From positions 1 through 29,981 of the forward strand of contig JAMDBZ010000022.1 in assembly GCA_023488945.1 (NCBI GenBank): 29,981 bases of DNA, written 5' to 3'. Source of the DNA: Deltaproteobacteria bacterium (lineage in GTDB: Bacteria; Desulfobacterota_E; Deferrimicrobia; Deferrimicrobiales; Deferrimicrobiaceae). Below, in pieces: positions 2,229 through 17,204 of the stretch; positions within the stretch are counted from its first letter, which is position 1, and the number at the start of each line of letters is the position of its first letter. A program made the translations under genes and the position numbers. Below the pieces are notes generated by a model. It was not told the origin of the DNA. It was given only the letters and a program-made list of their open reading frames with translations, and made no database searches.

Positions 2229-4253
2229 TCAGGCGCGCCCGACCCCTTCTCCGGCGGGAGGGGATGGGCGCATGAGCGCCGTCAGCGCCGCGGCCAGCGG
2301 GGCATGGCCGCCGAAGAGGACCAGCTTGTCTCCCACCGCGAGGATCTCCTCGCCGTCCGGCTGGATGAGGGCCCGGTCCCCCCGCAGAATGGAGAGAAGC
2401 ACGATCCCCGTCTCTCCGCCGACCGGCAGCTCCTCGACGCGCCTCCCGGCCCAGCCCGAATCGGGTGAAACATAAAAGACTTCGATCACCTTCTTCCGGA
2501 GGAATTCCTCGAACTCGGCGAGGACCTCCCCCGAGCTCGGCGCCGTCCGCTCCCGCAGGATCTTGTAGGCGCCGCTCCGGATGAGCCCCTCCTGCTGCCG
2601 GACGATGTGCTCGGGAACATGGTACTCCGCGAGGACACGCGCGAAGATCTCGACCGAGGTCTCGAACTCCTCCGGGATCACGGCGCTCGCGCCCAGGGAC
2701 AACAGGTCGTCGACGTCGGCGACGTACCGCGTCCTCACGAGGATGAACAGCTCGGGGTTGGTGTGCCGGGCGACGGCCACCGCGCGGCGCGTCGCCATCG
2801 GGTCGGAGATCGCCAGGACGAGCATCCGGGCGCGCCGGATCCCGACCCGTTCCAGGATCCCGGGGCTGTTGACGTCGCCGAAGAACATCGGCTCCCCCGC
2901 CTCCTTCCCCTCCCGCACGAGGACGTTGTTCAGGTCCACGACGACGTACGGAAGCCGCGTCGCGCGCAGGACGCGGGCAAGGTTCTTCCCGTTCATCCCG
3001 TACCCGGAGATGATGACGTGGTTCTCCAGCGGCGGCGCGGCGGGAGAGTCGTCTTCCGGCTCCTCCCGGACACCGCGCCACCGGCTCATCCATCGCTCGA
3101 CGCGCCACCCGGCCCCCGGCGCCGCCCCCATCAGGAACGGCGTCGCCGTCATCGTGAGGATCGTCGCGGCGAGCAGCGTCTGGTACTGCGCGGGACCGAT
3201 GAGCCCTTCCCGGTATCCCTCCGAGAGAAGCAGGAAGGAGAACTCGCCGATCTGCGCGATGCCGATGCCTGCAATCGCCGCCACGCGCCAGGAGAAGCCG
3301 AGCGCGCGGATCGCCGCCCCGGAGGCGAGCGCCTTGAGCAGGGCGACCCCCGCGAGGACCGCGAGGACCAGGGGGATGTGCCGCCCGACGAACGGCAGGT
3401 CGAGGAGCATCCCGAAGGCGATGAAGGCGACGCCGATCAGGACGTCCCGGAACGGCATGATCTGGGCCGCGATCTCGTGGACGTAGTCCGACTCGGAGAT
3501 CACCATTCCCGCGAGGAACGCCCCCATGCCGATGGAGAGCCCGATCTGCCGCGCGACGAACGCCGTCCCGAGGCACACGAGCAGCACGGTCATCGCGAGG
3601 ACGTCGCGGCTGTTCAGCTTGACGACCTCGCGCAAGAGCCGGGGGATGGCGAACCGGGCGAGCAAGAGCAGCCCCCCGACGGCGGCCGCGGCCTTGAGAA
3701 GCGTCGGGAGGACGGCGGACGCCTGCGCCGCCTCCCACTGGCGCAGCGGGAGGACGAGGAGCATCATCGGGATCGCCGCCAGGTCCTGGAAGACGAGGAC
3801 CCCGAGCGAGATCCGGCCCTGGGAGGTGTCCATCTCCATCCGGTCGGTGTAGACCTTGAGGACGATCGCCGTGCTGGAGAGGGAGAGGACGAACCCGATG
3901 AAAAGCGCCTCCGGAACGGGCACCCGCGCGATCAGCAGGACGACCAGGATGCACAGAACCGTGGCAGACACCTGGGCGGCGCCGGCCCACAGGATCTTCC
4001 GCGGCATCTTCCCGAGGCGCGAAACCGACAGGTCGAGCCCGATCGTGAACAGGAACATGGCCACGCCGATCTCGGCCAGGACATCCACCATCGCCGGCTC
4101 CGAGACGAGCCCGGCCGCCGTGGGCCCCAGGATCGCCCCGGCGATCAGGAAGGCGGGGATCACCGAGATGCGGAGCTTGCCGAACAGGATCGCGACGCCC
4201 GTGGCGATGGCCAGGACGACCGTCAGGTCCCGCAGGATGGCGGAGATCTCCAC
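2229..4253 (-). CDS. CPA2-family K+(Na+)/H+ antiporter with TrkA-N and TrkA-C domains (KefB/KefC-like)
   Basis: Inner-membrane cation/proton exchanger for potassium efflux and pH control. Residues 1-375 carry about twelve membrane segments with CPA2 hallmarks: a GxxLGP-type first re-entrant region near 39-44 and the VFQDLAAIP motif with Gln156-Asp157. A basic linker leads to a TrkA-N/RCK domain starting near 410 with nucleotide-binding GYGMNG (417-422). A TrkA-C domain occupies the last 80 residues or so. The 674-residue length fits the YbaL/KefB group. The start is GTG at 4253, with GGGGAGG seven bases upstream. The regulatory Kef ancillary flavoprotein (KefF/KefG type) is not next to it. 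Gating by NAD(H) or a similar ligand is inferred from the RCK domain. Confidence 0.93.
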   Translation of the reverse strand: MEISAILRDLTVVLAIATGVAILFGKLRISVIPAFLIAGAILGPTAAGLVSEPAMVDVLAEIGVAMFLFTIGLDLSVSRLGKMPRKILWAGAAQVSATVLCILVVLLIARVPVPEALFIGFVLSLSSTAIVLKVYTDRMEMDTSQGRISLGVLVFQDLAAIPMMLLVLPLRQWEAAQASAVLPTLLKAAAAVGGLLLLARFAIPRLLREVVKLNSRDVLAMTVLLVCLGTAFVARQIGLSIGMGAFLAGMVISESDYVHEIAAQIMPFRDVLIGVAFIAFGMLLDLPFVGRHIPLVLAVLAGVALLKALASGAAIRALGFSWRVAAIAGIGIAQIGEFSFLLLSEGYREGLIGPAQYQTLLAATILTMTATPFLMGAAPGAGWRVERWMSRWRGVREEPEDDSPAAPPLENHVIISGYGMNGKNLARVLRATRLPYVVVDLNNVLVREGKEAGEPMFFGDVNSPGILERVGIRRARMLVLAISDPMATRRAVAVARHTNPELFILVRTRYVADVDDLLSLGASAVIPEEFETSVEIFARVLAEYHVPEHIVRQQEGLIRSGAYKILRERTAPSSGEVLAEFEEFLRKKVIEVFYVSPDSGWAGRRVEELPVGGETGIVLLSILRGDRALIQPDGEEILAVGDKLVLFGGHAPLAAALTALMRPSPPAGEGVGRA

Positions 4254-4476: not shown

Positions 4477-5745
4477 TTACGGGAGCGTCCCGAAGACCTC
4501 GTCGTTGTCGGCCCCGGGGGAACGGCAGATCGACTTGATCCGGGCCGGCGTGCCGCTCATCTTCCAGGGCGGGGCGGCCAGCAGCAGCGGACCGTAGACC
4601 GGATCCGTAGCCCGTACGAAGCAGCCCCGCTGCCACCAGTTCTCCTCGGCGAGCGTCTCGAGCGGACGGTTGACCCGCCCCGTCACGACCGCCGCGCCGG
4701 GACCGCTCTTCTTCGATGTGTGCTCCTCGATCGCCCGGAGGATCTCGTCCGCCGTGAGGTTCCGCGACCATTCTTCGAGGATCGCCTGGAGCGCCCGCTC
4801 GTTCTCCATCCGGACGCGGGCGGCGGGGGCGTTGAAGCGGGGGTCCTTCGCAAGCTCGGGCCGGCCGATGATCGTCATGAGCGACTCGAACGCCTCGTCG
4901 TTGTAGGCCGCCATGAAGGCGTAGCCGTCCCTGCACCGGATGTAGGTGTAGGGGAAGACGGCGGGATCGTAGTTCCCGATCCGCGTCCTGGCCTTCCCGG
5001 CGGTGTGCATCCAGGTGATGTTGTAGTCCGCGAACTTCATCAGCCCCTCGGCTCCCGAGACGTCCACGAGCTGCCCCTTCCCGGTCTCCGCGCGGAAGTT
5101 GAGCGCGGCGAGGATCCCGAAGGCGCCCCACAACCCTACGACGAACCAGGCGTGCCAGTTCCCGAGGCGCGTCGGGACCTGGTGGGGAAGCGGCGGGCCG
5201 CCGCCTTCCGGCTCCCCGATGATGTTGGGCGCCCCCGAGAGCGCCTGGCACAGGATGTCGCTGTCCTTGACGGGACGGCCGGCGTCGGGGCCGAAGGAGC
5301 CGTACGTCGACAGGAGGAGATAGACGAGCCCGGGCCGATCGGCGGAGAGGCGCGGGTAGTCGATCCCGAGCTCCTCGAGGCGCTCCGGCGGCTCCGTCGC
5401 GACCAGGACGTCGCTGCGGCGCGCCAGTTCTCGGAGGCGGGCGCGCCCCTCCGGACGGGCCAGGTCGAGCGTGACGAATTTCCGGTTCCGCGCCTCGGAG
5501 AGGAACGGCAGCCCCGTCCCGGCGACCGTGATCCCTTCCGGGGCGTACGCGCGCGCCGGGTCGCCCCCCGGCGGCTCCACCTTGATCACCTCCGCGCCGA
5601 ACTCCCCCAGGATCGAGGCGGCCACCATCCCGCCGAAGTGGCCCGGGCAGAATTCAAGCACGCGGATCCCGGCAAGCGCCTCCGGCTTCCCCGCCGCGCG
5701 CCCCGGATCGGTCGCCTCTTTCGCCCAGGCCGCGAAATCGGTCAT
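4477..5745 (-). CDS. Class III CoA-transferase (CaiB/BaiF) subunit lacking the catalytic aspartate
   Basis: 422 residues of the formyl-CoA-transferase/carnitine CoA-transferase fold: N-terminal LAGIRVLEFCPGHFGGM, then LGEFGAEVIKVEPPGGDPAR (typical CoA-binding region), then the linker ILAALNFRAETGKGQLVDVS. In the active family an Asp sits 16 residues upstream of the end of ILAAL (Asp169 of formyl-CoA transferase, Asp191 in the neighbouring gene). Here that place is Trp200, in HAWFVVGLWGAFGILAAL, and no nearby Asp can substitute. The ATG at 5745 overlaps the stop of the paralogous upstream gene as ATGA. I infer a structural or substrate-binding partner in a heteromeric enzyme, similar in layout to the BbsE/BbsF pair of benzylsuccinate metabolism. 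The alternative is a divergent or inactive enzyme. Last gene of the sigma-54 operon. Confidence 0.88.
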   Translation of the reverse strand: MTDFAAWAKEATDPGRAAGKPEALAGIRVLEFCPGHFGGMVAASILGEFGAEVIKVEPPGGDPARAYAPEGITVAGTGLPFLSEARNRKFVTLDLARPEGRARLRELARRSDVLVATEPPERLEELGIDYPRLSADRPGLVYLLLSTYGSFGPDAGRPVKDSDILCQALSGAPNIIGEPEGGGPPLPHQVPTRLGNWHAWFVVGLWGAFGILAALNFRAETGKGQLVDVSGAEGLMKFADYNITWMHTAGKARTRIGNYDPAVFPYTYIRCRDGYAFMAAYNDEAFESLMTIIGRPELAKDPRFNAPAARVRMENERALQAILEEWSRNLTADEILRAIEEHTSKKSGPGAAVVTGRVNRPLETLAEENWWQRGCFVRATDPVYGPLLLAAPPWKMSGTPARIKSICRSPGADNDEVFGTLP

Positions 5746-7028
5746 CGGGACCTTCCCTCCCCGGCGGCGGGGGCGGCGCCGCCGGACGCCGCTCTTCCCG
5801 GCGGGCGCGCGCCCGGGACATCGGCCCACGTCCCGATCACCTTCCTTCGCGCCAGGTCCTCCATCTCCTCCCTCGACAGCCCGAGGATCTCCCCGAAGAC
5901 CTTCTCGTTGTGGTACCCGACCGGCTTCGCGGTCCACTTGAGCCGGCCGGGGCTCTCCGAGAGCTTGGGGACGGGACCGTACTCGTCGATCCGCCCGTAG
6001 AGCGGGTCGTCGAGTTCCCACACCGTCCCGCGCGCCCGGAGGTGCGGGTCCCGGTAATGGTCCGCCCCGCCGGCGACGGGGGCGGCCGAGAAACCCGACT
6101 CCTCCGCGATCCGGAGGATCTCGTCGCGGCCGCGGGACGCAGCGAACGCCTCGACCGCCTCCGGCGCCGCCCCGCCGGCGACCGCGGCGATCGCGGCGGC
6201 TTCCGCCTCGTCGCGGGCCGAGATGGCCGCAAACCCGTCCGCGCAGCGATAGATCCCCGAAGGGGGGAGCGCGACGTCGCGGTTGCCGGCCCGCTGCCGA
6301 TCCTTCCCCGCAAGACCCGCGTAGGCCCACGTCCAGTCGAGCGTCCGGATCACCGCCTCGGCCTGCGAGAGGTCGATGAGCTGCCCCTCCCCGGTCCGTC
6401 GGCGCGCGTAGAGCGCCGCCAGGACGGCGATCGTGGAGAAGAGCGATCCCGTGTAGTCGCCGACCCAGAAGCCGGCCTTGAGCGGTGAGCGGTCCGGGAA
6501 GCCGGTGATCGCCGACATCCCCGAGACGGCCTGGGCCGTGGCATCGTATGAAGCGCGCCCCTTCGAGCAGGGACCCCACTGGCCGAACCCCGAGTTGGCC
6601 GCGTAGACGATCCGCGGGTTGCGCGCCGAGATCTGCCGGTAGCCGATCTCCCATTCGTCCATCGTCCCGGCGCGCAGGTTCTCCACGACGACGTCCGATT
6701 TTTCCGCGAGACGGAGGAACAGTTCCTTCCCCTCGGGGTAGTGCACGTCGATCCCCACGTGGAGCTTGTTCCGGTTGAGGGGGAGAAAGGCGGGCGAGAC
6801 GTCCTGCCAGAAGAACCCCTCCGGCGCGACGTACCGCATGAGGTCCCCGCGCCCCGGCAGCTCGACCTTGATGACCTCGCAGCCGAACTCGCCCAGGTAA
6901 TCGGCGGCCGCCGGGCCGAAGATCCGCGTGGCGAGCTCCAGGACCCGGACGCCGGAGAGTGCCTCGGGCTTGAACGGGACGGACGCGAGGGACAACGCCT
7001 CCTCCGCGAACGCCCGGAAACCGCTCAT
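5742..7028 (-). CDS. Class III CoA-transferase (CaiB/BaiF), catalytic subunit
   Basis: 428 residues. It transfers CoA between acyl groups by forming an aspartyl-CoA anhydride/thioester intermediate. Visible landmarks are LSGVRVLELATRIFGP, LGEFGCEVIKVELPGRGD, NRNKLHVGIDVHYPEG, and GDYTGSLFSTIAVLAAL with Asp191 at the position of the catalytic aspartate, then RTGEGQLIDLS. The C-terminal 30 residues are Ala/Gly/Pro-rich and probably disordered. The ATG at 7028 is preceded by a strong GGAGGAAGG site that overlaps the end of livF. Its stop overlaps the start of the paralogue lacking the aspartate, so equal co-translation of two subunits is likely. The acid substrate is not known; co-transcription with a LIV importer and a MaoC hydratase suggests an imported organic acid. 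Confidence 0.92.
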   Translation of the reverse strand: MSGFRAFAEEALSLASVPFKPEALSGVRVLELATRIFGPAAADYLGEFGCEVIKVELPGRGDLMRYVAPEGFFWQDVSPAFLPLNRNKLHVGIDVHYPEGKELFLRLAEKSDVVVENLRAGTMDEWEIGYRQISARNPRIVYAANSGFGQWGPCSKGRASYDATAQAVSGMSAITGFPDRSPLKAGFWVGDYTGSLFSTIAVLAALYARRRTGEGQLIDLSQAEAVIRTLDWTWAYAGLAGKDRQRAGNRDVALPPSGIYRCADGFAAISARDEAEAAAIAAVAGGAAPEAVEAFAASRGRDEILRIAEESGFSAAPVAGGADHYRDPHLRARGTVWELDDPLYGRIDEYGPVPKLSESPGRLKWTAKPVGYHNEKVFGEILGLSREEMEDLARRKVIGTWADVPGARPPGRAASGGAAPAAGEGRSR

Positions 7029-7043
7029 CGGACCCCTTCCTCC

Positions 7044-7751
7044 TCAGACGGCAAGGTACTTCCGCTTGACGTCCTCGTCCGCCAGGAGATCGGACATCGT
7101 CCCCTCGTACCGGATCGATCCCTTGTCGATCACGTAGCCGCGGTCCGACACCTTGGCGCAGAAATGGAGGTTCTGCTCGGCGAGGAGCACCGTCACCCCC
7201 TCCTTCCGGATCTCGAGGATCATCTGCGCCAGGAGCGCCACGACGAGGGGGGCAAGCCCCTCGGACGGCTCGTCGAGGAGGAGCACCTCCGGGTTGGTCA
7301 TCAGCGTCCGGGCGATCGTGAGCATCTGCTGCTCGCCGCCCGAGAGCTGGCTCCCCAGGTTCCTCTCCCGCTCCTCGAGGCGCGGGAAGAGGGCGAAGAG
7401 CTTCTCCACCGTCCAGGGGTTCCGCACCTCCTTCCCGCGCCGCGCCGCGACTTCGAGGTTCTCGCGAACGGTGAGGTCCGGGAAGCAGCGCCGGTCCTCC
7501 GGGACGAAGCCGATCCCCTTCCGGCAGATCCGGTAAGCGCGCAGGCCGTCGATCCTCTCCTCCCGGAACAGGATCTCGCCGCTCCGGGGAGGCGTCAGAC
7601 CGATGATCGACCGGAAAGTCGTGCTCTTCCCCGCCCCGTTGCGGCCCAGGAGCGCCACGACCTCTCCCTTCCCGACGGCCAGCGACACGTCGAACAGGAT
7701 GTGGCTGCGGCCGTAGAAGGTGTTGACCGCGCGGAGATCGAGAATCGCCAT
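7044..7751 (-). CDS. Branched-chain amino acid/organic acid ABC transporter ATP-binding protein LivF
   Basis: Cytoplasmic ATPase of a LIV-type (HAAT) importer. Walker A is GRNGAGKST, the signature is LSGGEQQM and Walker B is VLLLDEPSEG; the switch His lies in the segment after TVLLAEQN. The ending, with DKGSIRYEGT then LLADEDVKRKYLAV, is typical of LivF. I use ATG at 7751 (MAILDL...), which has GAGGGG six bases upstream and matches the family N-terminus, giving 235 residues. A GTG at 7766 that overlaps the livG stop as GTGA would add five residues. Fifteen bases separate it from the CoA-transferase pair. Confidence 0.93.
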   Translation of the reverse strand: MAILDLRAVNTFYGRSHILFDVSLAVGKGEVVALLGRNGAGKSTTFRSIIGLTPPRSGEILFREERIDGLRAYRICRKGIGFVPEDRRCFPDLTVRENLEVAARRGKEVRNPWTVEKLFALFPRLEERERNLGSQLSGGEQQMLTIARTLMTNPEVLLLDEPSEGLAPLVVALLAQMILEIRKEGVTVLLAEQNLHFCAKVSDRGYVIDKGSIRYEGTMSDLLADEDVKRKYLAV

Positions 7752-7762
7752 CGGCCCCTCTT

Positions 7763-8518
7763 TCACGCCACGATTTCCTCGCCGAGGTACGCCTTGCGCA
7801 CCTGCGGGTCCGCCTTGATCTCCGCCGGGACGCCGTCGGCGATCACCGCCCCCTGGTGGAGCACCGTGATCCTCTCCGAGATGCCGAAGACGATGTCCAT
7901 GTCGTGCTCGGTGAAGACGAGCGTCAGGCCCTGCTCCTTCGCGATCCGCTGGAGGAGGGCGACCGTCTCCCGGCTCTCGAAGCGCGACATCCCGGCGGTC
8001 GGCTCGTCGAGCATCAGGAGCCGGGGCCGGGAGGCGAGCGAGATGGCGATCTCGAGCCGCTTCTGGTCCCCGTGGGACAGGACGGAGGCCGACGACTCCA
8101 TCTGGCCGAGCAGGCCCACCTGATCGAGGAGGGCGATCGCTTCCTCCCCGACGTCCCGATGGTTCCGGGCGAGCGCCAGCGGGTTGCGGCTCGTCCCGCG
8201 GTGGGCAAAGAGGGCCACCTGGACGTTCTCGAAGACCGACATCCGCGGGAAGATGTTGGTGATCTGGAACGACCGGCCGATTCCCTTCCGGATGATCCGG
8301 TGCGGGGGAAGGCCGGTGATCCGCTCCCCGTCGAAGACAACCTCTCCGGAATCGGGAGCGAACAGTCCCGTCATCACGTTGAACAGCGTCGACTTCCCGG
8401 CGCCGTTCGGCCCGATGATCGCGCGGATCTCCCCTTCCTCCACGGCGAGCGACACGTCCTGGAGGGCGCGCAGCCCCCCGAACGACTTCACGACGCCGCG
8501 GACTTCGAGAATGCCCAT
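7763..8518 (-). CDS. ABC transporter ATP-binding protein LivG
   Basis: 251 residues, the second ATPase of the LIV-type importer. Walker A is GPNGAGKST, the signature LSHGDQKRLEIA and Walker B LLMLDEPTAGMS, with the LivG-specific insertion around FPRMSVFENVQVALF. It ends in VRKAYLGEEIVA, as LivG proteins do. The ATG at 8518 lies inside the end of livHM, a 31-bp overlap longer than the usual four bases, so termination and restart must occur within the permease coding end. An AAGAG sequence just upstream is a modest ribosome site. Confidence 0.93.
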   Translation of the reverse strand: MGILEVRGVVKSFGGLRALQDVSLAVEEGEIRAIIGPNGAGKSTLFNVMTGLFAPDSGEVVFDGERITGLPPHRIIRKGIGRSFQITNIFPRMSVFENVQVALFAHRGTSRNPLALARNHRDVGEEAIALLDQVGLLGQMESSASVLSHGDQKRLEIAISLASRPRLLMLDEPTAGMSRFESRETVALLQRIAKEQGLTLVFTEHDMDIVFGISERITVLHQGAVIADGVPAEIKADPQVRKAYLGEEIVA

Positions 8519-10428
8519 CTCTTGATCCACCCGCCCCGGGTGAGCGCCCCCCGGGCCTTTTCGTTGAAGAAGCCGGTCACCCCGCCGGGGAGCAGCAGGA
8601 CCAGCAGGAGCAGGACGAGCCCCAGGACGAGCGCCCAGTACTCGGTCCATGCCACGATGTAGGAGTTGAGGACGATGAGAACCATCGCGCCGATCGCGGG
8701 CCCCGCGAAGGTGTAGATCCCCCCGATGATGGTCATCAGCACCGGGTCGGCCGACTTGGTCCAGTGGATGATGTCGGGGGAGATCGACTTCTCGGCGACG
8801 GCGTAGAGCCCGCCGGCCAGTCCCGTGAAGGCCCCCGCGACGACAAAGGCCAGCAGCTGGTACAGCTTGACGTTGACGCCGAGGTAGGCCGCCCGCTGTC
8901 CGTTCTCCCGGATCGCCTTGAGGGCCGCGCCGAACGGAGAGGAGCGGACGCGCCGCAGGAGCGCGATCGACAGCGCCGCGACGGCGAGGGCGAAGTAGTA
9001 CATCCCCCCCGTCGAGCCGATGTCGAGGGACATCCCCGCGAGGGAGATCTCCCGGACGGGGATCCCCTGGATCCCGTTGTCCCCGCCGGTGAAGCCGTAC
9101 CACTTGAAGGCGACCGTGTAGACGAGCTGGCCGAAGGCGAGGGTGAGCATCGCGAAGTGGACGCCCGCCAGACGGACGCAGAAGAAGCCGATGACGGCCG
9201 CGACGACCGCGGATGCCGCGATCGATGCCAGGAGGGCGGAAAGCGTGCCGACGCCCGTCTTGGTCAGCAGGAGCGCCACGGTGTAGGCGCCCACGCCGTA
9301 GAAAGCGGCCTGCCCGAACGAAAGGAGCCCCGTGGTCCCGAGGAGCAGGTTGAAGGCGATCGCCATGAGCGCCGCCACGAAGACCTGGGTCATGAGGTAC
9401 TGGTAGAACCGGCCTGCGAAGAGCGGCACTAGGAGCAGGACGGCGAGGGGGACGATCCACAGGAACGGGCGCGCCGAGAAGTGGACCGGCGAGATCTCCT
9501 GCGCCTCCATCCCCAGGTTCTTCTCGGAGAGCGGCTTGACCTTGAGCGGCCGGCCGAAGAGCCCCCACGGGCGGACGATGAGAACGACGACCATCAGGAG
9601 GTAGATGAACGCCATCTCGAACTCGGGGAAGACGATGATCCCGATCGTCTCGAGCGCCCCAATGAGCAGCGACCCGACGAGCGCCCCCCACAGGTTCCCC
9701 AGCCCCCCGATGACCACGACGACGAAGCACTCGATGATGATCTCGGTGCCCACCCCGGGGAACACCGTCCGGACGGGCGCGGCAAGCGCCCCGCCGAACC
9801 CGGCGAGGACCGCCCCGAAGGCGAAGACAAGAGTGAAGAGCGCCTTCATATTGATCCCGAGCGCGTCGGCCATCTCCCGGTCGGAGGCGGTGGCCCGCAC
9901 GATCTTGCCGGTCCGGGTCTTGTACAGGAGGTACCAGAGGATCACGGCCACGGCGGGCGCCGCAGCGAGGACCAGGATCGTGTAGATCGGGACGGTCCCG
10001 CCCAGGATCGTCACCGAGCCGTCGAGGGACGCCGGCATGGCGATCGACTTGAACTCCCCGCCGAAGACGTACCTGGCGAGGTCGTCGATCATGAGAACGA
10101 GGGCGAAGGTCAAAAGGAGCTGGTAGATCTCCTCCTGGATGTAGATCCGGCGCAGCAGGCCCATCTCGATCAGGACGCCGATGAGCGCCACGCCGAGCGG
10201 CGCCGCGACGAGCGCCAGGACGAAGCCGCCGGGCCCCGCGAGCTGGAGCGTGATCCAGTAGATGAAATAGGCCCCCAGCATGTAGAGCGAGCCGTGGGCG
10301 AAGTTGAGGATGTTGAGGACCCCGAACACCAGGGTCAGCCCCGACGAGATGAGGAAGAGGAACGCCGCCAGCCGCAGGGCGCTGGTGACCTGCACGACGA
10401 GGAAGGAGATGTCGAGGAATCCGGTCAT
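8488..10428 (-). CDS. Fused LivH-LivM permease of a LIV-type ABC transporter
   Basis: 646 residues combining both inner-membrane permeases in one chain. Residues 1-290 are LivH-like (LTLVFGVLNILNFAHGSLYMLGA region, then GGLGNLWGALVGSLLIGALE). After a hydrophilic linker around 295-315 (PLSEKNLGMEAQEISPVHFS), the rest is LivM-like (LLLGTTGLLSFGQAAFYGVGAY, GFTGGDNGIQGI, SPFGAALKAIRENGQRAAYLG). About eight membrane segments are expected in each half. LivH and LivM are usually separate proteins, and fusion fixes their 1:1 ratio. The ribosome site before ATG 10428 is weak (GGAAC), in contrast to the strong one of livK, and a 17-bp hairpin lies just upstream; both would lower permease output relative to binding protein. 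Confidence 0.93.
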   Translation of the reverse strand: MTGFLDISFLVVQVTSALRLAAFLFLISSGLTLVFGVLNILNFAHGSLYMLGAYFIYWITLQLAGPGGFVLALVAAPLGVALIGVLIEMGLLRRIYIQEEIYQLLLTFALVLMIDDLARYVFGGEFKSIAMPASLDGSVTILGGTVPIYTILVLAAAPAVAVILWYLLYKTRTGKIVRATASDREMADALGINMKALFTLVFAFGAVLAGFGGALAAPVRTVFPGVGTEIIIECFVVVVIGGLGNLWGALVGSLLIGALETIGIIVFPEFEMAFIYLLMVVVLIVRPWGLFGRPLKVKPLSEKNLGMEAQEISPVHFSARPFLWIVPLAVLLLVPLFAGRFYQYLMTQVFVAALMAIAFNLLLGTTGLLSFGQAAFYGVGAYTVALLLTKTGVGTLSALLASIAASAVVAAVIGFFCVRLAGVHFAMLTLAFGQLVYTVAFKWYGFTGGDNGIQGIPVREISLAGMSLDIGSTGGMYYFALAVAALSIALLRRVRSSPFGAALKAIRENGQRAAYLGVNVKLYQLLAFVVAGAFTGLAGGLYAVAEKSISPDIIHWTKSADPVLMTIIGGIYTFAGPAIGAMVLIVLNSYIVAWTEYWALVLGLVLLLLVLLLPGGVTGFFNEKARGALTRGGWIKRWAFSKSAAS

Positions 10429-10464
10429 TTTCGTTCCGTCACGCGGTGTGTCCGGGCGTCCATG

Positions 10465-10502
10465 CGCAGGGGGGCCGCTCCCCGTGGAGCGGCCCCCCTG
10501 CG
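10465..10502 (-). other. Very stable 17-bp hairpin between livK and livHM
   Basis: Left arm 10465-10481 and right arm 10486-10502 are perfectly complementary, GC-rich (CGCAGGGGGGCC...), with loop CCGT. There is no U-tract on the operon strand. Its place between the binding-protein gene and the permease gene matches the known pattern of 3'-stabilising or attenuating hairpins that raise binding-protein levels above the membrane components. Confidence 0.8.
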
Positions 10503-10512
10503 GCCGAAGATC

Positions 10513-11721
10513 CTACTTGTTTGCCGCCTGCGCCTTCTTCCATTCCGCGATCGAGTAGAGGACCTTGCTGGCGGGGAAGACCTGGGTCTTCCCGACGATC
10601 GCGAACGGGTACTGCTTCACGAAGGTCGTCTCCCCGACCATGAAGTCGCACGAGAGCTGGTGATCCTCCTTCCGCAGCGTCGCCGTGCCGCGCGGCAGGT
10701 CGAGCGTCAGCCCCTCGAGGGCGTGGATGACCTTCTCCGTGTCCGTCGACCCGGCCTTCTTGATCGCCTCGGCCAGGAAGTGGATCCCGTCATACCCTTC
10801 CGCCGCCCAGGCGCTCGGGTACTCCTTGTACCTGGCCAGGTACGCCTTCACGAATTCCCGGTTCCTCGCGGTGTTCGGCCAAAAGAAGTAGTACCGCTGG
10901 TCGGCGATGATTCCTTTGGGCATGTCCTTCCCGAGCTGCCTGACCACGGTGATGTCCGCCCCGGTGGCGATGATCCACTTCATCTTCTTGAAGAGGCCGT
11001 ACGGCTCGGCCTGCTTGATGAAGGCCACGAGGTCGCCGCCCCAGAGGGTGCAGAAGACCGCGTCGGGCTTGGCGGCCAGGATGGCGTTGATGTACGGAGT
11101 GTAGTCCGGGATGAAGAGCTTGGGCCACTGCTCCCCGATGAACTCGGCCTTCGGGTTCTGTTCCTTGGTCTTCGCCTTGAAGATCTCCCACATCGTCCGG
11201 CCGTACTCGTAGTCGGGGCCGATGTTGTAGAACTTGACGAGCTTCTTGTTCTTCGCCGCGTACAGCGCCAGCGAGTTGGCTTCCTGGGAGTTGCACGTGC
11301 CGGACCGGAAGGTGTAGCGGTTCCACTTCTCCTTCGTCAGCGTGTCGGTCGAGCCCACCGTGTCCATGAAGACGATCTTCTCCTGCCTGGCGATCTCCCC
11401 GATGGCGAGCGACACCGCCGAGCTCACCACGCCGAACAGCATGTTCACCCGGTCCTTCTGGATGTACCGCTTGGCGATGGAGGTCGCTTCCTGGACGTTC
11501 GCCTTGGAGTCCGTCACGAGGAGATCGATCTTCTTCCCGAGGACGCCCCCCTTCGCGTTGATCTCCTCGACGGCGAGCTCCGCCCCCTGTCTGCATGTGA
11601 TGCCCAGGTCCGCCGCCCGCCCCGACAACGGGAACAGGCCGCCCAGCTTGATCGTGTCCGCGGCGACCGCCGGGACGGCGAGCGCCAGCACCAGTGCCAC
11701 TGCCCAGAACGCCTTCTTCAT
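10513..11721 (-). CDS. Periplasmic substrate-binding protein of the LIV-type transporter (LivK-like)
   Basis: 402 residues. The N-terminus MKKAFWAVALVLALAVPAVA is a Sec signal peptide cleaved near Ala20/Ala21. The mature start DTIKLGGLFPLSGRAADLG, then GAELAVEEINAKGGVLGKKI, is the type I periplasmic-binding-fold signature of the leucine/amide-urea/aromatic-acid group. It has an aromatic-rich binding half (YNIGPDYEYGRTMWE, YYFFWP) and lacks the clear amino-acid-binding pattern of leucine-specific proteins. This suits an organic acid ligand, though only as inference. The ATG at 11721 has the strongest ribosome site of the operon, AAGGAGG, and overlaps the stop of the maoC-like gene as ATGA. A strong hairpin follows the stop. 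Confidence 0.93.
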   Translation of the reverse strand: MKKAFWAVALVLALAVPAVAADTIKLGGLFPLSGRAADLGITCRQGAELAVEEINAKGGVLGKKIDLLVTDSKANVQEATSIAKRYIQKDRVNMLFGVVSSAVSLAIGEIARQEKIVFMDTVGSTDTLTKEKWNRYTFRSGTCNSQEANSLALYAAKNKKLVKFYNIGPDYEYGRTMWEIFKAKTKEQNPKAEFIGEQWPKLFIPDYTPYINAILAAKPDAVFCTLWGGDLVAFIKQAEPYGLFKKMKWIIATGADITVVRQLGKDMPKGIIADQRYYFFWPNTARNREFVKAYLARYKEYPSAWAAEGYDGIHFLAEAIKKAGSTDTEKVIHALEGLTLDLPRGTATLRKEDHQLSCDFMVGETTFVKQYPFAIVGKTQVFPASKVLYSIAEWKKAQAANK

Positions 11722-12152
11722 TGCCCCTCCTCCTTTTTGGTCTCTTCTCCGGCTCCCCGCCTCCGCGGGGGGACGATGACCGCCTCCCCGTCGAGGACCA
11801 TCTCCTTCCTCTGGTTGAAACATTGCGTCCGCAGCCTGAGCCGCCTTTCCGAAACGACCTCGGCGACTTCGATACGCGCGGTGACCTCGTCGCCGATCTT
11901 CACGGGCCGCAGGAAACTGAGCGTCTGCGAAACGTAGAGGCATCCCGGGCCCGGCAGCTTCATCCCGATGACGGCGGAGAGCAGGCCGGCGGTCAGGATC
12001 CCGTGGGCGATCCGCTCCCCGAACCGGGTCTTCGCCGCGTACTCCTTGGAGATGTGGATCGGGTTGCGGTCCCCCGTGATCCCGGCGAAGAGGAAGACGT
12101 CCTCCTCGTTGATCACCTTGGTCATCTCCGCCGCGTCGCCGACTTTGTACAT
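11718..12152 (-). CDS. MaoC-family (R)-specific enoyl-CoA hydratase/dehydratase
   Basis: 144 residues with a single hot-dog fold, as in PhaJ. The hydratase-2 motif is present: GDRNPIHISKEYAAKTRFGERIAHG, with Asp28 and His33 matching the catalytic Asp31/His36 pair of PhaJ. Reversible hydration of an enoyl-CoA is the expected reaction. The ATG at 12152 (MYKVGD) is chosen because it follows GAGGG and because the sigma-54 promoter at 12189-12204 places transcription start shortly upstream; longer starts would lie in or before the promoter. First gene of the seven-gene operon. With the two CoA-transferases it suggests that the imported compound becomes an unsaturated or hydroxy acyl-CoA. Confidence 0.9.
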   Translation of the reverse strand: MYKVGDAAEMTKVINEEDVFLFAGITGDRNPIHISKEYAAKTRFGERIAHGILTAGLLSAVIGMKLPGPGCLYVSQTLSFLRPVKIGDEVTARIEVAEVVSERRLRLRTQCFNQRKEMVLDGEAVIVPPRRRGAGEETKKEEGQ

Positions 12153-12188
12153 GCCGCCCTCGGGATGGTCGCGTACCCAGGGGAATCC

Positions 12189-12204
12189 AGCAAGGGGGGT
12201 GCCA
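12189..12204 (-). promoter_or_regulatory. Sigma-54 (-24/-12) promoter for the maoC-liv-CoA-transferase operon
   Basis: On the minus strand the sequence reads TGGCACCCCCCTTGCT. TGGCAC, five bases, TTGCT matches the RpoN consensus TGGCAC-N5-TTGCW at every defined position. The -12 GC lies about 40 bases before the maoC ATG, leaving a short leader. An enhancer-binding activator gene sits immediately upstream on the same strand, which strengthens the call. Confidence 0.88.
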
Positions 12205-12392
12205 GACGAAGAAAACAGGATCTGCTGTTTTATTCTGTCATATAACAATACAGATATATTGCCATTTTTAATACAAATCCAAAAATCGAATGTTTTGGAG
12301 ATTGATGTACCTGAAAAGATACGCTATTTCAGGTGCAGACTCGAAAACCCGGGAAATCCATTTCGCCCTACGGCCTTCGGCAATAATGTATC
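12205..12392. promoter_or_regulatory. AT-rich regulatory island with inverted repeats (candidate activator sites)
   Basis: The stretch is sharply richer in A and T than the rest of the window. It holds three perfect inverted repeats: AAAACAG/CTGTTTT (12212-12218, 12225-12231), CCAAAA/TTTTGG (12279-12284, 12293-12298) and ACCTGAAA/TTTCAGGT (12309-12316, 12327-12334, 10-base spacer). The last lies just over 100 bp upstream of the -24 box, a usual distance for a sigma-54 enhancer. The first, read on the minus strand, ends in UUUU and could also be a weak terminator for the activator gene. A further GTATC/GATAC pair (12406-12421) falls inside the activator's last codons. The AT richness may also ease looping or bind IHF-like proteins. 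Confidence 0.55.
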
Positions 12393-14162
12393 TCAATTGG
12401 TATATGTATCTATTTTGATACGATCGATCGGGATCCCGTGCCGCTTCATTTTCTCGTACAACTTGACCCGGTGGATCCTAAGGAGGCCCGCCGCACGGGA
12501 CTTGTTCCAGCCGGCTGCGGAAAGGGCGGCCAAGATCGCCAGGCGCTCCGCCTCGGCCCGGGCCGAGGCGAGCGATCCCGGCGAAACCTCCTTCCGGGCG
12601 CCGGGCACGGCGCGCAGGAGGTGAGCCGGGAGGTGTTCCGGGAGGATGACGTCGGCGTGCGCCATCGCCACGGCCCGCTCCAGGACGTTCCGGAGCTCGC
12701 GGACGTTCCCCGGCCAGGAGTACGAGCCGAGAATCCCGAGCGCCTCCGGGGAGAGACGCTTGCGCGGCTCGCCCGAATCCGCGGACAGCCTCGAAAGGAC
12801 ATGCTCCGAGATCTCCGGGATGTCCTCCCGCCGCTCGCGCAGCGGCGGGATGCGGAGCGGGATCACGTTGACCCGGTAATAGAGGTCGGCCCGGAACTTC
12901 CCCTTGCCCACGAGCTCCTCGATGTTGCCCCCTGTGGCGGCGATGATCCGGATGTCGACCCGGCGGGGGGAGGTCCCGCCGACCCGCTCCAGCTCCCTCT
13001 CCTGGAGGACGCGAAGCAGCTTCGCCTGCATCGGGAGCGGCATGTCGCCGATCTCGTCGAGGAAGAACGTCCCCCCCTCGGCCATCTCGAACTTGCCCGG
13101 CTTGCCCCCCTTCTTCGCGCCGGTGAACGCCCCCTCCTCGTAGCCGAACAGCTCCGACTCGAGCAGCTCGGCGGGGACGGCGGCGCAGTTGAGCTTGATG
13201 AAGGGGCCGCTCCGCCGCGCCCCCGCCGCGTGGATGGCGTGGGCGAAGAGCTCCTTGCCCGTCCCCGTCTCACCGCGCAGCAGGACGGTGGAATCCGTCC
13301 GGGAGGCCCGGCGCGCCTCCTCCTTGGCGGCGGAGATGGCGGGCCCCGAGCCGACGATGCTCGCGAAGGTGTACCGCGCGCCGCGCAGGTGGGTGAGCTC
13401 ATCCTCGTAGTACCGGACCTTCGACTCGAGAAGGTTCATCTTCGCCGCCAGGTCCCGGAGCTGCTCCATGTCCTTGAAGACGACGCGGCCGTACGCGCCG
13501 ACGACCCGGTTCCCCTCGCGCAGCGGGATCCGGTTGACGATCACCTCCCGGCCGCGGATCGTCTGCGGCTCCCCCATCTCGGCCACGCCGGTCCTCGCCA
13601 CGACGTGCATCCGCGTATTGTCGATGACCTCGGTGACGCGCTTCCCGATCGCCCCCTCGACCGACGTGCCGAGGAACCCGGCGTACCCCTCGCTGATCAT
13701 CGTGATGACGCCGCCCGCGTCGACGACCACCATCCACTCCCCCGAGCCGGCGAGCACCTCCTCGAGCGTCTGCACGAGGACCTTGGTCGAGTCGAGCTCG
13801 CGCGAGATCTTCTCCATCTCCGTGATGTCCTGGAAGATCGAGACGGCGCCGATCAGCGCGCCGCCCCGGAAGATCGGGGAGCGGTTCGTGAGGACCGTGC
13901 GGGCGCCGATCGCCTGCGGGCGCCCGACCTCGGGCTCCCCGGTCCGCAGGACGTTGACGAGGCCGGAGTTGGGGACGATGTCGAGGAGCTTCGCCCCGAG
14001 CGCCCGTTCCTTCGGGACCCCGAGGATTCGGGCGGCGGCGGCGTTGAAGACGATGATCGTCGCGTCCCGGTCGATCGCGAGGACGCCCGATGGAAGGGCG
14101 TCGAGGAGCGTCCCCAGGAGCGGGCCGGCCCCGGCGGGGAACCCGTCGCGCCGGTCAGGCAC
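12393..14162 (-). CDS. PAS-PAS sigma-54-dependent enhancer-binding activator
   Basis: 589 residues. PAS 1 spans about 15-115 ([20 protein letters not shown]) and PAS 2 about 135-230. A short coiled linker ([19 protein letters not shown]) precedes the AAA+ domain, which has Walker A GETGTGKE (297-304), the sigma-54-contacting GAFTGA loop (344-349) and Walker B GGTFFLDE (363-370). A Fis-type helix-turn-helix closes the protein ([20 protein letters not shown]). No receiver domain exists, so it senses a ligand or redox state directly through PAS. It starts at GTG 14162 with GGGAGGGG upstream and overlaps the Fe-S gene by eight bases. It is probably the activator of the adjoining sigma-54 promoter. 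Its last codons run into the AT-rich island. Confidence 0.93.
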
Positions 14163-14595
14163 GGGAGCCCCTCCCGACGGGGCACTCCGCCTGGCAGGCG
14201 AAGCAGTAATAGTAGTTCCCCGTCATGAAGTTCTGCCAGAGCTCCAGGGAAAGCCGGCTCTTGAGCAGCTCCCTCCGATCCTCCGGGGAGGCCTCGACGA
14301 GATCCATGAGGAAGCCCCGCCACGCGCGGAACCCGCCGGCGAAGATCCGGTCGCCGCACTTCTTCTTGTCGATCCGTCCTCCGCCCGACAGCGCCCCGGT
14401 GGGGCACGCCTCGACGCAAGCGCGGCAGTGAATGCACGGCGTCAGCGGGAGCGGGTCCCCCGGGGCGACGTCCGCGTCGGTCACCACGCCGCCCAGCCGC
14501 ACGGCGGGACCGAACGCCGGCGTCACGAGGAGGCCGCTCTCGCCGTACCCGCCCAGGCCCGCCGCGACCGCCGCGACTTCCGCCTGCGCGATCAT
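14155..14595 (-). CDS. Short double-[4Fe-4S] protein, related to the C-terminal half of QueG-type proteins
   Basis: 146 residues from ATG 14595, chosen because GGGGAGG lies just upstream; an in-frame ATG at 14613 has no such site. The start, [28 protein letters not shown], matches the segment before the ferredoxin domain in epoxyqueuosine-reductase-like and related corrinoid/Fe-S proteins. Those proteins have roughly 100 or more residues ahead of it, which are absent here. Eight cysteines are arranged as CxxCxxCxxxCP (54, 57, 60, 64), Cys80, and CxxCxxxCP (131, 134, 138), enough for two [4Fe-4S] clusters. Its stop overlaps the activator's start. Either a degraded remnant or, given the clean start and complete cysteine set, an electron-transfer or redox-sensing partner of the PAS activator. 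Confidence 0.75.
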
Positions 14596-14664
14596 TCCAC
14601 ACCTCCCCATCACGCTTGAAACGTTATTTTATCAGCCTCGCATCCCGGATCATGAAAAATCCCC

Positions 14665-14720
14665 TTGCCCGCGGCTCCTCGGCCGGCATATATATGAAAA
14701 CTGACTTACATATATACATA
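14665..14720 (+). promoter_or_regulatory. Promoter/operator region of the vapBC-like operon
   Basis: A TTGCCC box (14665-14670) is followed after 18 bases by TATATA (14689-14694). The latter sits inside a ten-base palindrome, CATATATATG (14687-14696), and a related ACATATATACATAT follows at 14709-14722. Short palindromes over the promoter suit autoregulation by the ribbon-helix-helix antitoxin. The exact boxes are uncertain. Confidence 0.45.
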
Positions 14721-14733
14721 TCGGAGGAGACCC

Positions 14734-14928
14734 GTGCGCACCGCCGTCAAGATGACCTCGATCCGCCTGGATACCCGCCTGGCCGACGAGGCGACCCGTC
14801 TCCTCGGGGCCAGGAGCAGGACGGAAGCCGTTCACATCGCCCTCAAGGAGATCGTGGCGCTCAAGAAATTCAAGGAGCTGATGAAGAAACACGGGGGGAA
14901 GCACGCGTTCGCGGCCCATGAGGAATAG
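14734..14928 (+). CDS. VapB-like ribbon-helix-helix antitoxin
   Basis: 64 residues starting at GTG 14734, with GGAGGAG ahead of it. MTSIRLDTRLADEATRLLG followed by RTEAVHIALKEIVALKK is the DNA-binding ribbon-helix-helix pattern of the VapB/DUF2191 group. The charged C-terminus (KELMKKHGGKHAFAAHEE) is where the toxin would be bound. It overlaps the toxin gene by 11 bases, the usual arrangement. It should neutralise the PIN toxin and repress its own promoter, probably through the AT-rich palindromes just upstream. Confidence 0.88.
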   Translation: MRTAVKMTSIRLDTRLADEATRLLGARSRTEAVHIALKEIVALKKFKELMKKHGGKHAFAAHEE

Positions 14929-15328
14929 GATCGTCGTCTTCGACACGTCGGTCCTCGTCGATCAATTCAGGACGAACCGCCATGCGGAGCGGATGAGAGA
15001 CCTTGCCGGCATCGTCCGGAGCTCATCCGTCGTCCTGTCCGAGCTGCTGCGGGGCGCCACGACGAAGCAGGACAGGGACCTCGTCGCCGCCCTGGCGAGG
15101 AACCACCCGATCCTGGTCCCTATGGAATCGAACTGGCTGGAGTCGGGCGCCATCCTGTCGAAGATGAGGGAGGATCAGGGGTTCCCTCCCGGCAAGCTGA
15201 GAGACCTTCATTTCGACGTGCTCATCGCCCTGACGGCCAGGAGCCACGGTGCGACGCTCATCACGTCCAATGCGACCGACTTCGGAATGATCCGGAAGTA
15301 CCGGGATTTCCGATTCGAGGCCTGGTAG
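14918..15328 (+). CDS. VapC-like PIN-domain ribonuclease toxin
   Basis: 136 residues. The acidic PIN active site is complete: Asp9 in VVFDTSVLVD, Glu42 in LSELLRG, Asp100 in LHFDVLIALTA and Asp121 in ITSNATDF. Proteins of this family cleave tRNA or rRNA with Mg2+. Translation is coupled to the antitoxin through an 11-base overlap; no separate ribosome site is evident. The cleavage target cannot be predicted from sequence. Confidence 0.92.
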   Translation: MRNRIVVFDTSVLVDQFRTNRHAERMRDLAGIVRSSSVVLSELLRGATTKQDRDLVAALARNHPILVPMESNWLESGAILSKMREDQGFPPGKLRDLHFDVLIALTARSHGATLITSNATDFGMIRKYRDFRFEAW

Positions 15329-15851: not shown

Positions 15852-17204
15852 CTACGATTCGATCCCCAGGACCCGGATGAGGCGGAACAGGTAGGTGGGG
15901 GTGAGGCCGAGGAGCTCGGCCGCCTTCGTCTTGTTCCCCCCGGCCTTACGGATCGCGCGGCGGATGATCGCCCGCTTGTGCTCCCGGACCGACTCGTGGA
16001 AGGTCGCCTCCTCGGGGGTGGCGGAATCGCCGGGCGCATCCTCGAGCGCCAGGCACAGGTCCGGCGGCGTGATCTCCTCGCCCTCGGAGAGGGCCACGGC
16101 CCGCCCGATCGCGTTCTCCAGCTCCCGGATGTTCCCCGGCCAGCGGTACCGCTCGATGATCGCGATCGACTCGGGCGAGAGCCGCTTCGGGGCCCCGCTT
16201 CGCCCCGGCTCCTCCCGGCTCCGCGCCAGGAAGCACTCGGCGAGGGAGAGGATGTCCTCGCGGCGTTCCCGAAGCGGCGGAAGGTGGATGGGGATCCCAT
16301 TGATCCGGTAGAAGAGATCCTCCCGGAACTTCCCCCGCTCCGTCTCCCTCCGGATGTCCCGGTTCGACGCGCAGATCAGCCGGACGTCGGCCGTCAGCGT
16401 CTTCACGCCGCCGACCCGCTCGAACCGCCGGTCCTGGAGGACGCGGAGCAGCTTCCCCTGCATCGGGAGGGGGACTTCGCCCACCTCGTCGAGGAAGAAG
16501 GTCCCGCCATCCGCGAGCTCGAACCGGCCCGGCTTCGAGGTCGCCGCGCCGGTGAACGCCCCTTTTTCGTACCCGAAGACCTCCGCCTCCCAAAGCGTCG
16601 GCGGGATCGCCGCGCCGTTGATCTTGATGAAGACCCCCTCCCGCCTCCCGCAGAGAAGGTGGATCGCCCGCGCGACGAGCTCCTTCCCCGTCCCGGTCTC
16701 CCCGGTGATCAGGACCGGCATCGCGGAGGCGGCCGCCTTCTCGGCCGTCCGGCGGACTTCCAGCCAGGCCGGCGAGCTCCCCACCATGCCGAACCACTCC
16801 TGCGCCCGCGGCGGGGCGCTCACCTCCTTTTCCGCAGCCAGCCGCGTCCGCGCGGCGTTCCCCACGACCCGCAGCAGCTCCGCCTCGTCGAACGGCTTGG
16901 AGATGTAGTCGAACGCCCCGGAGCGGATCGCCTCGACGGCGTCGCCGATCGTCCCGTACGCGGTGACGAGGATCACCGGCAGGTCGGGGTACCGATCCCG
17001 GCAGCGGCGGAAAAGCATCAGTCCGTCGACCCGGGGCATCCGGATGTCCGTGACGAGGACGTCCGCCGGGCGGACGGCGAGCCGATCGAGCGCGGCGGCC
17101 CCGTCCACCGCCTCCTCGACCTCGTACCCCTCCCGGGACAGCATCGCCCCCAGAACGCGCCGCAGGTTCCGGTCATCCTCCGCGACGAGGACCCTCGCCT
17201 TCAC
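15852..17204 (-). CDS. NtrC-family response regulator, sigma-54 dependent
   Basis: 450 residues. The receiver domain (1-120) has the acidic pair Asp10/Asp11, phospho-acceptor Asp53 in VLVTDIRMPRVDG, and the conserved Lys in ISKPFD. The AAA+ domain has GETGTGKE, the GAFTGA loop in YEKGAFTGA, and Walker [12 protein letters not shown] Fis-type helix-turn-helix ends the protein (GGNKTKAAELLGLTPTYLFR). The start is GTG 17204 with AGGAGGGAA upstream, overlapping the kinase stop as GTGA. It forms a two-component system with the adjoining kinase. No second convincing -24/-12 promoter was seen in the window, so its targets are probably elsewhere. Confidence 0.95.
   Translation of the reverse strand: MKARVLVAEDDRNLRRVLGAMLSREGYEVEEAVDGAAALDRLAVRPADVLVTDIRMPRVDGLMLFRRCRDRYPDLPVILVTAYGTIGDAVEAIRSGAFDYISKPFDEAELLRVVGNAARTRLAAEKEVSAPPRAQEWFGMVGSSPAWLEVRRTAEKAAASAMPVLITGETGTGKELVARAIHLLCGRREGVFIKINGAAIPPTLWEAEVFGYEKGAFTGAATSKPGRFELADGGTFFLDEVGEVPLPMQGKLLRVLQDRRFERVGGVKTLTADVRLICASNRDIRRETERGKFREDLFYRINGIPIHLPPLRERREDILSLAECFLARSREEPGRSGAPKRLSPESIAIIERYRWPGNIRELENAIGRAVALSEGEEITPPDLCLALEDAPGDSATPEEATFHESVREHKRAIIRRAIRKAGGNKTKAAELLGLTPTYLFRLIRVLGIES

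Follow-up and report, generated by a model that had tools for sequence, protein, structure and literature searches.

A predicted sigma-54 operon joining carboxylic acid import to coenzyme A transfer in a Deltaproteobacteria bacterium

The 29,981-nt stretch of contig JAMDBZ010000022.1 of a Deltaproteobacteria bacterium (the window) carries on its minus strand a gene for a sigma-54 activator (14162–12393), followed by seven genes on the same strand, maoC, livK, livHM, livG, livF, caiB1, and caiB2, the last ending at position 4477. With fairly good confidence, we read this arrangement as a system for sigma-54-induced uptake of a carboxylic acid lacking an alpha-amino group, transfer of coenzyme A (CoA) to this acid by CaiB1–CaiB2, (de)hydration by MaoC, and subsequent beta-oxidation. 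The proposal of the first-pass annotation, that one sigma-54 unit with a dedicated PAS activator joins acid uptake, CoA transfer, and (de)hydration, is supported by the gene order, by a -24/-12 box, and by a motif that occurs in three copies upstream of this box.

Gene order and its conservation

The operon comprises maoC (11718–12152), livK (10513–11721), livHM (8488–10428), livG (7763–8518), livF (7044–7751, with an alternative GTG start at 7766), caiB1 (5742–7028), and caiB2 (4477–5745). Pfam assigns MaoC (PF01575) to the first product; Peripla_BP_6 to LivK, the periplasmic binding protein of a HAAT importer; two BPD_transp_2 stretches to one protein of 646 amino acids, LivHM, a fused permease pair; ABC_tran to two ATPases, LivG (together with BCA_ABC_TP_C) and LivF; and CoA_transf_3 (PF02515) to both CaiB proteins. 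All gene families named in the first-pass annotation (maoC-like, livK, livHM, livG, livF, and two CoA-transferases) are thus recovered; no NCBIfam model above its cut-off is found for the importer and CaiB proteins among the matches listed. The same annotation described the genes as overlapping or nearly touching. This holds for five of the six junctions, which overlap or span at most 15 nt (maoC/livK, -4; livHM/livG, -31; livG/livF, 11, counted from the ATG; livF/caiB1, 15; caiB1/caiB2, -4), and fails for livK/livHM, where 84 nt with a hairpin intervene.

The scan of genome contigs with the CaiB2 alignment yields 26 loci, to which later scans add 34 (loci are designated by L). The full order from maoC to caiB2 is seen in L001, L003, L004, L006, L012, L104, and L105, making eight operons with the window. 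In six of these loci the order is maoC–livK–livHM–livG–livF–caiB1–caiB2–kefB at 62–85% identity, while L012 shows the same order minus kefB at 53–77%. The antiporter gene kefB (2229–4253, minus strand; KefB-type cation/proton antiporter, Pfam Na_H_Exchanger/TrkA) is a candidate operon member by synteny: in seven operons it is located downstream of caiB2 (in L003 at a distance of 2.3 kb), and in L012 it is not found. Shortened contigs or loci (e.g., L002, L005, L054, L057, L058) show the downstream part of the operon only. The gap between maoC and livK reaches 249 nt in L001 (between match ends), and L006 has one additional gene between livF and caiB1 in a gap of 1283 nt. The closest relatives of CaiB2 are mostly named Deltaproteobacteria bacterium; those with another name are a partial sequence of Candidatus Deferrimicrobium (P0085, 75%) and sequences of Candidatus Deferrimicrobiaceae (P0067, 71%) and one Gemmatimonadota (P0077, 71%). 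By this one gene, the host probably belongs to the Deferrimicrobium group. Chance as the origin of the gene order is rejected, the same order being present at seven related loci.

Sigma-54 box and predicted activator sites

The -24/-12 box TGGCACCCCCCTTGCT (12204–12189, minus strand) is the sole exact match in the window, in line with the exact promoter previously claimed for the seven genes, and 0.018 such matches are expected from base composition. The maoC ATG lies 36 nt after the box end, and in the eight promoters the box starts 52–88 bp upstream of the maoC start codon. Three boxes (window, L001, L003) match the motif exactly, those of L012, L104, and L105 deviate at one position, and those of L004 and L006 at two, with GG/GC kept throughout. 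When each of the eight promoters was dinucleotide-shuffled 500 times, 38 of the 4000 shuffles had a box with at most two mismatches in the last 100 bp. Matches with up to two mismatches in the window (3) do not exceed those in shuffles (mean 4.33), hence, the weight rests on conservation of the box. The first-pass annotation would have been given up if relatives had kept neither gene order nor promoter; all eight operons inspected keep the order and a box with two mismatches at most. A chance box is rejected on the same count, together with the low expected number of exact matches. From the motif and the gene order, transcription would start at this box, and the seven genes would be co-transcribed. 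The Sigma54_DBD family is found in seven of eight related genomes that carry the operon or its downstream part (G001–G005, G167, G112, and G077, livF to kefB alone seen), as compared to four of 14 control genomes.

The activator (12393–14162) is a one-component sigma-54 enhancer-binding protein with PAS, AAA+, and Fis-type helix-turn-helix (HTH) domains. Pfam gives a clear first PAS, Sigma54_activat, and the Fis-type HTH. The second PAS of the PAS–PAS protein described earlier as adjoining the operon scores 19 bits when scanned alone against a cut-off of 22.6; hence, the activator and its first PAS domain stand, and the second PAS is weakly supported. The GAFTGA loop and Walker A are present in the window protein and conserved in the aligned copies, and the HTH is conserved in the seven copies aligned in full (the L009 row stopped short of the HTH). 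Identity to the window activator is 70–82% for the copies from L001, L003, L006, L012, L104, and L105, and 53% for L009.

Three 18-bp inverted repeats with the consensus TGTACC-N6-GGTACA and at most three mismatches precede the box in all eight promoters. Their geometry is the same in all cases: sites 1 and 2 are exactly 18 bp apart, sites 2 and 3 are separated by 80–84 bp, and site 3 and the box by 114–120 bp. This geometry was set after viewing the first six promoters; L104 and L105 were added afterwards. In the window (minus strand), site 1 is CGTATC-N6-GATACA (12405–12422) and overlaps the 3' end of the activator gene; site 2 is TATACC-N6-GATACA (12387–12404) and abuts site 1; site 3 is CGTATC-N6-GGTACA (12306–12323), 81 bp downstream of site 2 and, start to start, 119 bp upstream of the box. 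None of the 4000 shuffled promoters yields a site trio, and a second trio is not found on either strand in any of the eight loci, where single weaker matches occur elsewhere. The trio of repeats at eight promoters is a new observation of this analysis, and the repeats are probably the binding sites of the activator. Exact site matches in a search of five genomes occur once each in G001, G003, and G005, all at this promoter; hence, the activator is most simply seen as a single-target, local regulator.

No repeat with at most two mismatches is found in L009, L011, and L022, whose activators are 51–53% identical to that of the window, as would be expected if the protein and its sites change together. 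The activator of L011 is divergent. The link between activator and box was also assessed in 25 CaiB-pair loci, a part of those collected, with activator-like genes defined by a tblastn match to the window activator. In all nine loci with such a gene, a box with no more than one mismatch lies on the strand of caiB1, within 9 kb upstream of it; none of the 16 loci lacking it has such a box, and five of these have a two-mismatch match. Four of the nine (the window, L012, L104, L105) belong to the operon family, and once these are excluded the count is five of five (L009, L011, L022, L099, L100). L099 is a weak case, since its activator-like gene and box lie at least 3.3 kb from caiB1.

CaiB1–CaiB2 pair

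Among 60 loci, 59 have a CaiB2 match, and in 50 of the latter CaiB1 adjoins CaiB2 on the same strand, CaiB1 being first in 48. Of nine unpaired loci, six start at a contig end, two are partial matches in one genome, and one (L062) is an exception. As seen by coordinate comparison, seven of the 60 loci repeat listed places; without these, CaiB1 adjoins CaiB2 in 43 of 52 loci. In samples of the phylum, the CaiB2 profile has matches at E ≤1e-100 in 25 of 297 and 16 of 198 genomes; these samples overlap heavily, scoring was limited to the top five or eight candidates per genome, and CaiB1 proteins account for a few of the matches.

All 43 aligned CaiB1 sequences, that of the window included, have the catalytic Asp (L026 is poorly aligned). 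The window CaiB2 also has Asp at this position, hence, a subunit devoid of catalytic Asp is rejected here. The C-terminus of CaiB2 (422 amino acids) is shorter by about 16 residues than that of most listed relatives (437–440 amino acids); P0002 also has 422. Given the adjacency, what had been described as two CoA-transferases are indeed two CoA_transf_3 genes, and CaiB1 and CaiB2 probably form one two-subunit family-III enzyme.

The neighborhoods of related pairs show mixed pathways and, therefore, indicate no single substrate. By eye, the pair in L010 and L013 (Desulfacinum, Desulfosoma; approximately 0–7000) is near TRAP-transporter-like, GlcD/GlcF-like, and GntR-like genes; a distant pair in L098 (3379–14506) is among 4-hydroxybutyryl-CoA-dehydratase-, iron-alcohol-dehydrogenase-, acyl-CoA-synthetase-, and acetate-transporter-like genes; and the pair in L092 stands beside beta-oxidation-like genes, as judged from protein starts. 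The archaeal record L023 (Geoglobus, 8605–11299) contains a CaiB1–CaiB2 pair with 47% and 39% identity. Other CaiB pairs in the same genomes, about 30–42% identical, yield no substrate clue.

Importer, hydratase, and substrate

The HAAT importer set is complete, with a Peripla_BP_6 binding protein, two BPD_transp_2 domains, and two ATPases. It matches all parts and the order of the HAAT system LivJ/K-HMGF and differs from it in the fused permeases, the livHM fusion being open in nine of nine loci tested, and in a missing residue: the Glu of the 'GPEG' motif of Escherichia coli LivJ and LivK, the alignment reference (L037), is absent in all seven aligned LivK proteins (window, L001, L003, L004, L006, L011, L012). 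We take this Glu to be the amine-binding residue of LivJ/LivK. The nearest solved relative of the window LivK is 3i45 (188 bits), next 8tg1; the former presumably holds a small aromatic acid.

MaoC (144 amino acids) has 5cpg, an (R)-specific enoyl-CoA hydratase, as its best PDB relative, and the GDRNPxH motif (GDRNPIH in the window) is found in MaoC of all eight operons. An Asp/His dyad is catalytic in MaoC hydratases; it is kept here, and by sequence MaoC is a PhaJ-type (R)-specific enoyl-CoA hydratase. The additional gene of L006 (7729–8640) encodes a beta-hydroxyacid dehydrogenase (NAD_binding_2 and NAD_binding_11). Its best models, both below cut-off, are tartronate semialdehyde reductase, with 285 of 341 bits, and 3-hydroxyisobutyrate dehydrogenase, with 200 of 292. 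Present in one of eight operons, this dehydrogenase is a hint at hydroxy-acid chemistry. Together with the likeness of MaoC, it suggests an alpha,beta-unsaturated or 3-hydroxy acid; our preferred guess is such an acid, which might be aromatic or resemble 3-hydroxyisobutyrate or methacrylate. The families 3HCDH_N and Thiolase_N are present in all eight related genomes and also in 14 of 14 controls.

Proposed mechanism and its alternatives

In the likely mechanism, the PAS activator would sense a carboxylic acid that has no alpha-amino group, or a signal arising from this acid, bind the three inverted repeats about 114–222 bp upstream of the box, and loop to the sigma-54 RNA polymerase, so that the seven-gene operon would be transcribed from the -24/-12 box. 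LivK, the fused LivHM, LivG, and LivF would then import the acid at the expense of ATP; CaiB1 and CaiB2, acting as one enzyme, would transfer CoA onto it from an acyl-CoA donor; and MaoC would interconvert (R)-3-hydroxyacyl-CoA and enoyl-CoA, feeding beta-oxidation encoded elsewhere.

Several observations weigh against this mechanism. No match to the sigma-54 family is found in G004. The activator gene of L004 is not adjacent to the operon: it is located in locus L106, with the same orientation and approximately 5 kb upstream. L011 keeps liv–caiB in the absence of activator sites, with a C-terminal maoC remnant seen by eye at approximately 3300–3433. The sites in the window have three, two, and two mismatches, the same as in L104, and are among the weakest; single sites with at most one mismatch occur in 4 to 10 places in each of the five genomes, and matches to the reversed control pattern in 3 to 13; hence, single near-matches are no more common than in the control and are uninformative. 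Finally, the catalytic position of CaiB2 in 52 sequences is occupied by Asp in 38 and by Glu in 11, including L011 and L012, the latter being one of the eight operons, and is missing by truncation in three; in formyl-CoA transferase, Glu is not known to substitute for the catalytic Asp. As both CaiB proteins are acidic at this position, they might be separate homodimeric CoA-transferases with different substrates, which are co-expressed only; adjacency lasting down to approximately 35% identity to the window pair is, however, more typical of subunits, and we consider two homodimers rather unlikely.

Other alternatives concern the substrate. If the importer were a true transporter of branched-chain amino acids or urea, having merely a promoter in common with unrelated CoA enzymes, the nearest NCBIfam models, Urt and Liv, would fit, all of them below cut-off; the loss of the 'GPEG' Glu in the aligned LivK proteins argues against such a transporter, as does the company of liv genes and other CaiB pairs (35–45% identical) in four of 17 further loci, where both form a single run (L101, L102) or lie alongside each other (L088, L090), and we find it improbable. 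A module for C5 dicarboxylates of the mesaconate/itaconate type, with CoA transfer, hydration by MaoC, and cleavage by citramalyl-CoA lyase, would agree with the hydratase in the operon and with the best NCBIfam model of CaiB1, succinyl-CoA:mesaconate CoA-transferase (173 of 700 bits, far under the cut-off). Known mesaconyl-CoA hydratases are, however, longer than the PhaJ-like MaoC of 144 amino acids, no HpcH/CitE-type lyase is found by Pfam in the operon, and the HpcH_HpaI family (PF03328) is seen in three of eight related genomes and 10 of 14 controls; mesaconate-type chemistry, suggested in the first-pass annotation, is thus very unlikely. The same annotation had suggested aryl- or alkyl-succinate, with CaiB1–CaiB2 as a succinyl-CoA:benzylsuccinate CoA-transferase of the BbsEF type. 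The chains of 9fn0 (BbsEF, succinyl-CoA:(R)-benzylsuccinate CoA-transferase) are among the PDB relatives of the CaiB proteins, and BbsE–BbsF is likewise an adjacent pair forming a two-subunit family-III enzyme. For both subunits, other solved chains rank above those of 9fn0 (CaiB1: 10uh, 161 bits; 9br6 and 4ed9, 150; 9fn0_B, 144; CaiB2: 4ed9, 147; 10uh, 135; 9fn0_B, 70), and the PFL-like glycyl-radical family (PF02901) is found in none of the eight related genomes and in three of 14 controls, so that we give this substrate hardly any credence. The completeness of the eight genomes is not stated, hence, these family absences are suggestive only.

Other features of the window

The intercistronic region after livK (10429–10512, minus strand) contains a 17-bp GC-rich hairpin, as predicted by folding, with a z-score of -4.79 and no equally stable structure among 200 shuffles. 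Of the seven junctions folded (window, L001, L003, L006, L012, L104, L105; L004 left out), five (window, L003, L006, L104, L105) have z-scores from -2.88 to -4.79, whereas those of L001 and L012 are -1.02 and -0.96. A hairpin after livK is seen in all seven, with sequences unlike each other; in L006 it is followed by a U run and is attenuator-like. A hairpin after a binding-protein gene can maintain an excess of that protein.

The start of the activator gene is overlapped by a gene (14155–14595, minus strand) for a 4Fe-4S double-cluster protein of 146 amino acids (Pfam Fer4_16) with a QueG/reductive-dehalogenase-like C-terminal part, the respective NCBIfam matches being below cut-off. It is N-terminally shorter than the open frames of 258–267 amino acids in L001, L104, L105, and L040. 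Just upstream of its shortened end, a divergent small gene and a PIN-domain gene (14616–15328, plus strand) resemble a toxin–antitoxin pair. A second sigma-54 system, an AAA+ response regulator and a histidine kinase, is at 15852–19159, with a superoxide-dismutase-like gene close by. Rfam and tRNA scans of the window find nothing, and sigma-70 promoter and terminator scans give matches at chance level only. In a distant DNA search of plasmids, the 20 matches listed cover at most 30% of the query, all in the activator part.

Comparison with known systems

The YctR regulon crt–gntT–caiB–bcd–etfAB, predicted in Clostridioides, resembles the window operon, as far as the consulted parts of the source go, in placing genes for a transporter, for CoA transfer of the CaiB type, and for enoyl-CoA hydration (crt) under a sigma-54 activator; the same source predicts CrbR with a maoC-containing butyrate operon for Clostridiales (PMC6615313). 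By this account, such a combination is not new in kind. The YctR regulon has a GntT permease, one CaiB, and bcd–etfAB, while the window operon has a HAAT importer, a CaiB pair, and MaoC, with no dehydrogenase. In Desulfovibrio vulgaris, the sigma-54 regulome as described in the sections consulted likewise includes one-component activators with sites upstream of co-localized sigma-54 operons; 'branched-chain' and 'TRAP' do not occur in its main text, 'CoA' occurs once, and these sections contain no comparable operon (PMC4641369). A genome paper that mentions the name Deferrimicrobium reports, in its consulted part, 11 liv clusters, and its main text does not contain the term 'CoA transferase' (PMC9386147). 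Searches of an open-licence library found no description of this exact operon.

The runs livHMGF–caiB1–caiB2–livK in L101 and L102 unite the importer and the CaiB pair in one run, as in the window; they differ from it in CaiB proteins that are 35–37% identical and in separate permeases, with no MaoC or activator match within 18 kb. A broader proposal, tentative and in our judgment possible rather than probable, is that adjacent CaiB1–CaiB2 proteins constitute a large uncharacterized two-subunit class of family III, which radiated in Desulfobacterota-like bacteria and was repeatedly joined with HAAT or TRAP importers and sigma-54 PAS activators, scavenging various organic acids via CoA transfer rather than ATP-dependent ligation. 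Should the two CaiB proteins form a single enzyme, the annotation of many neighboring genes as separate CoA transferases would need revision, since these genes would encode subunits. For uncultured lineages, the operon offers a testable candidate for acid scavenging, with its activator, predicted DNA sites, and binding protein.

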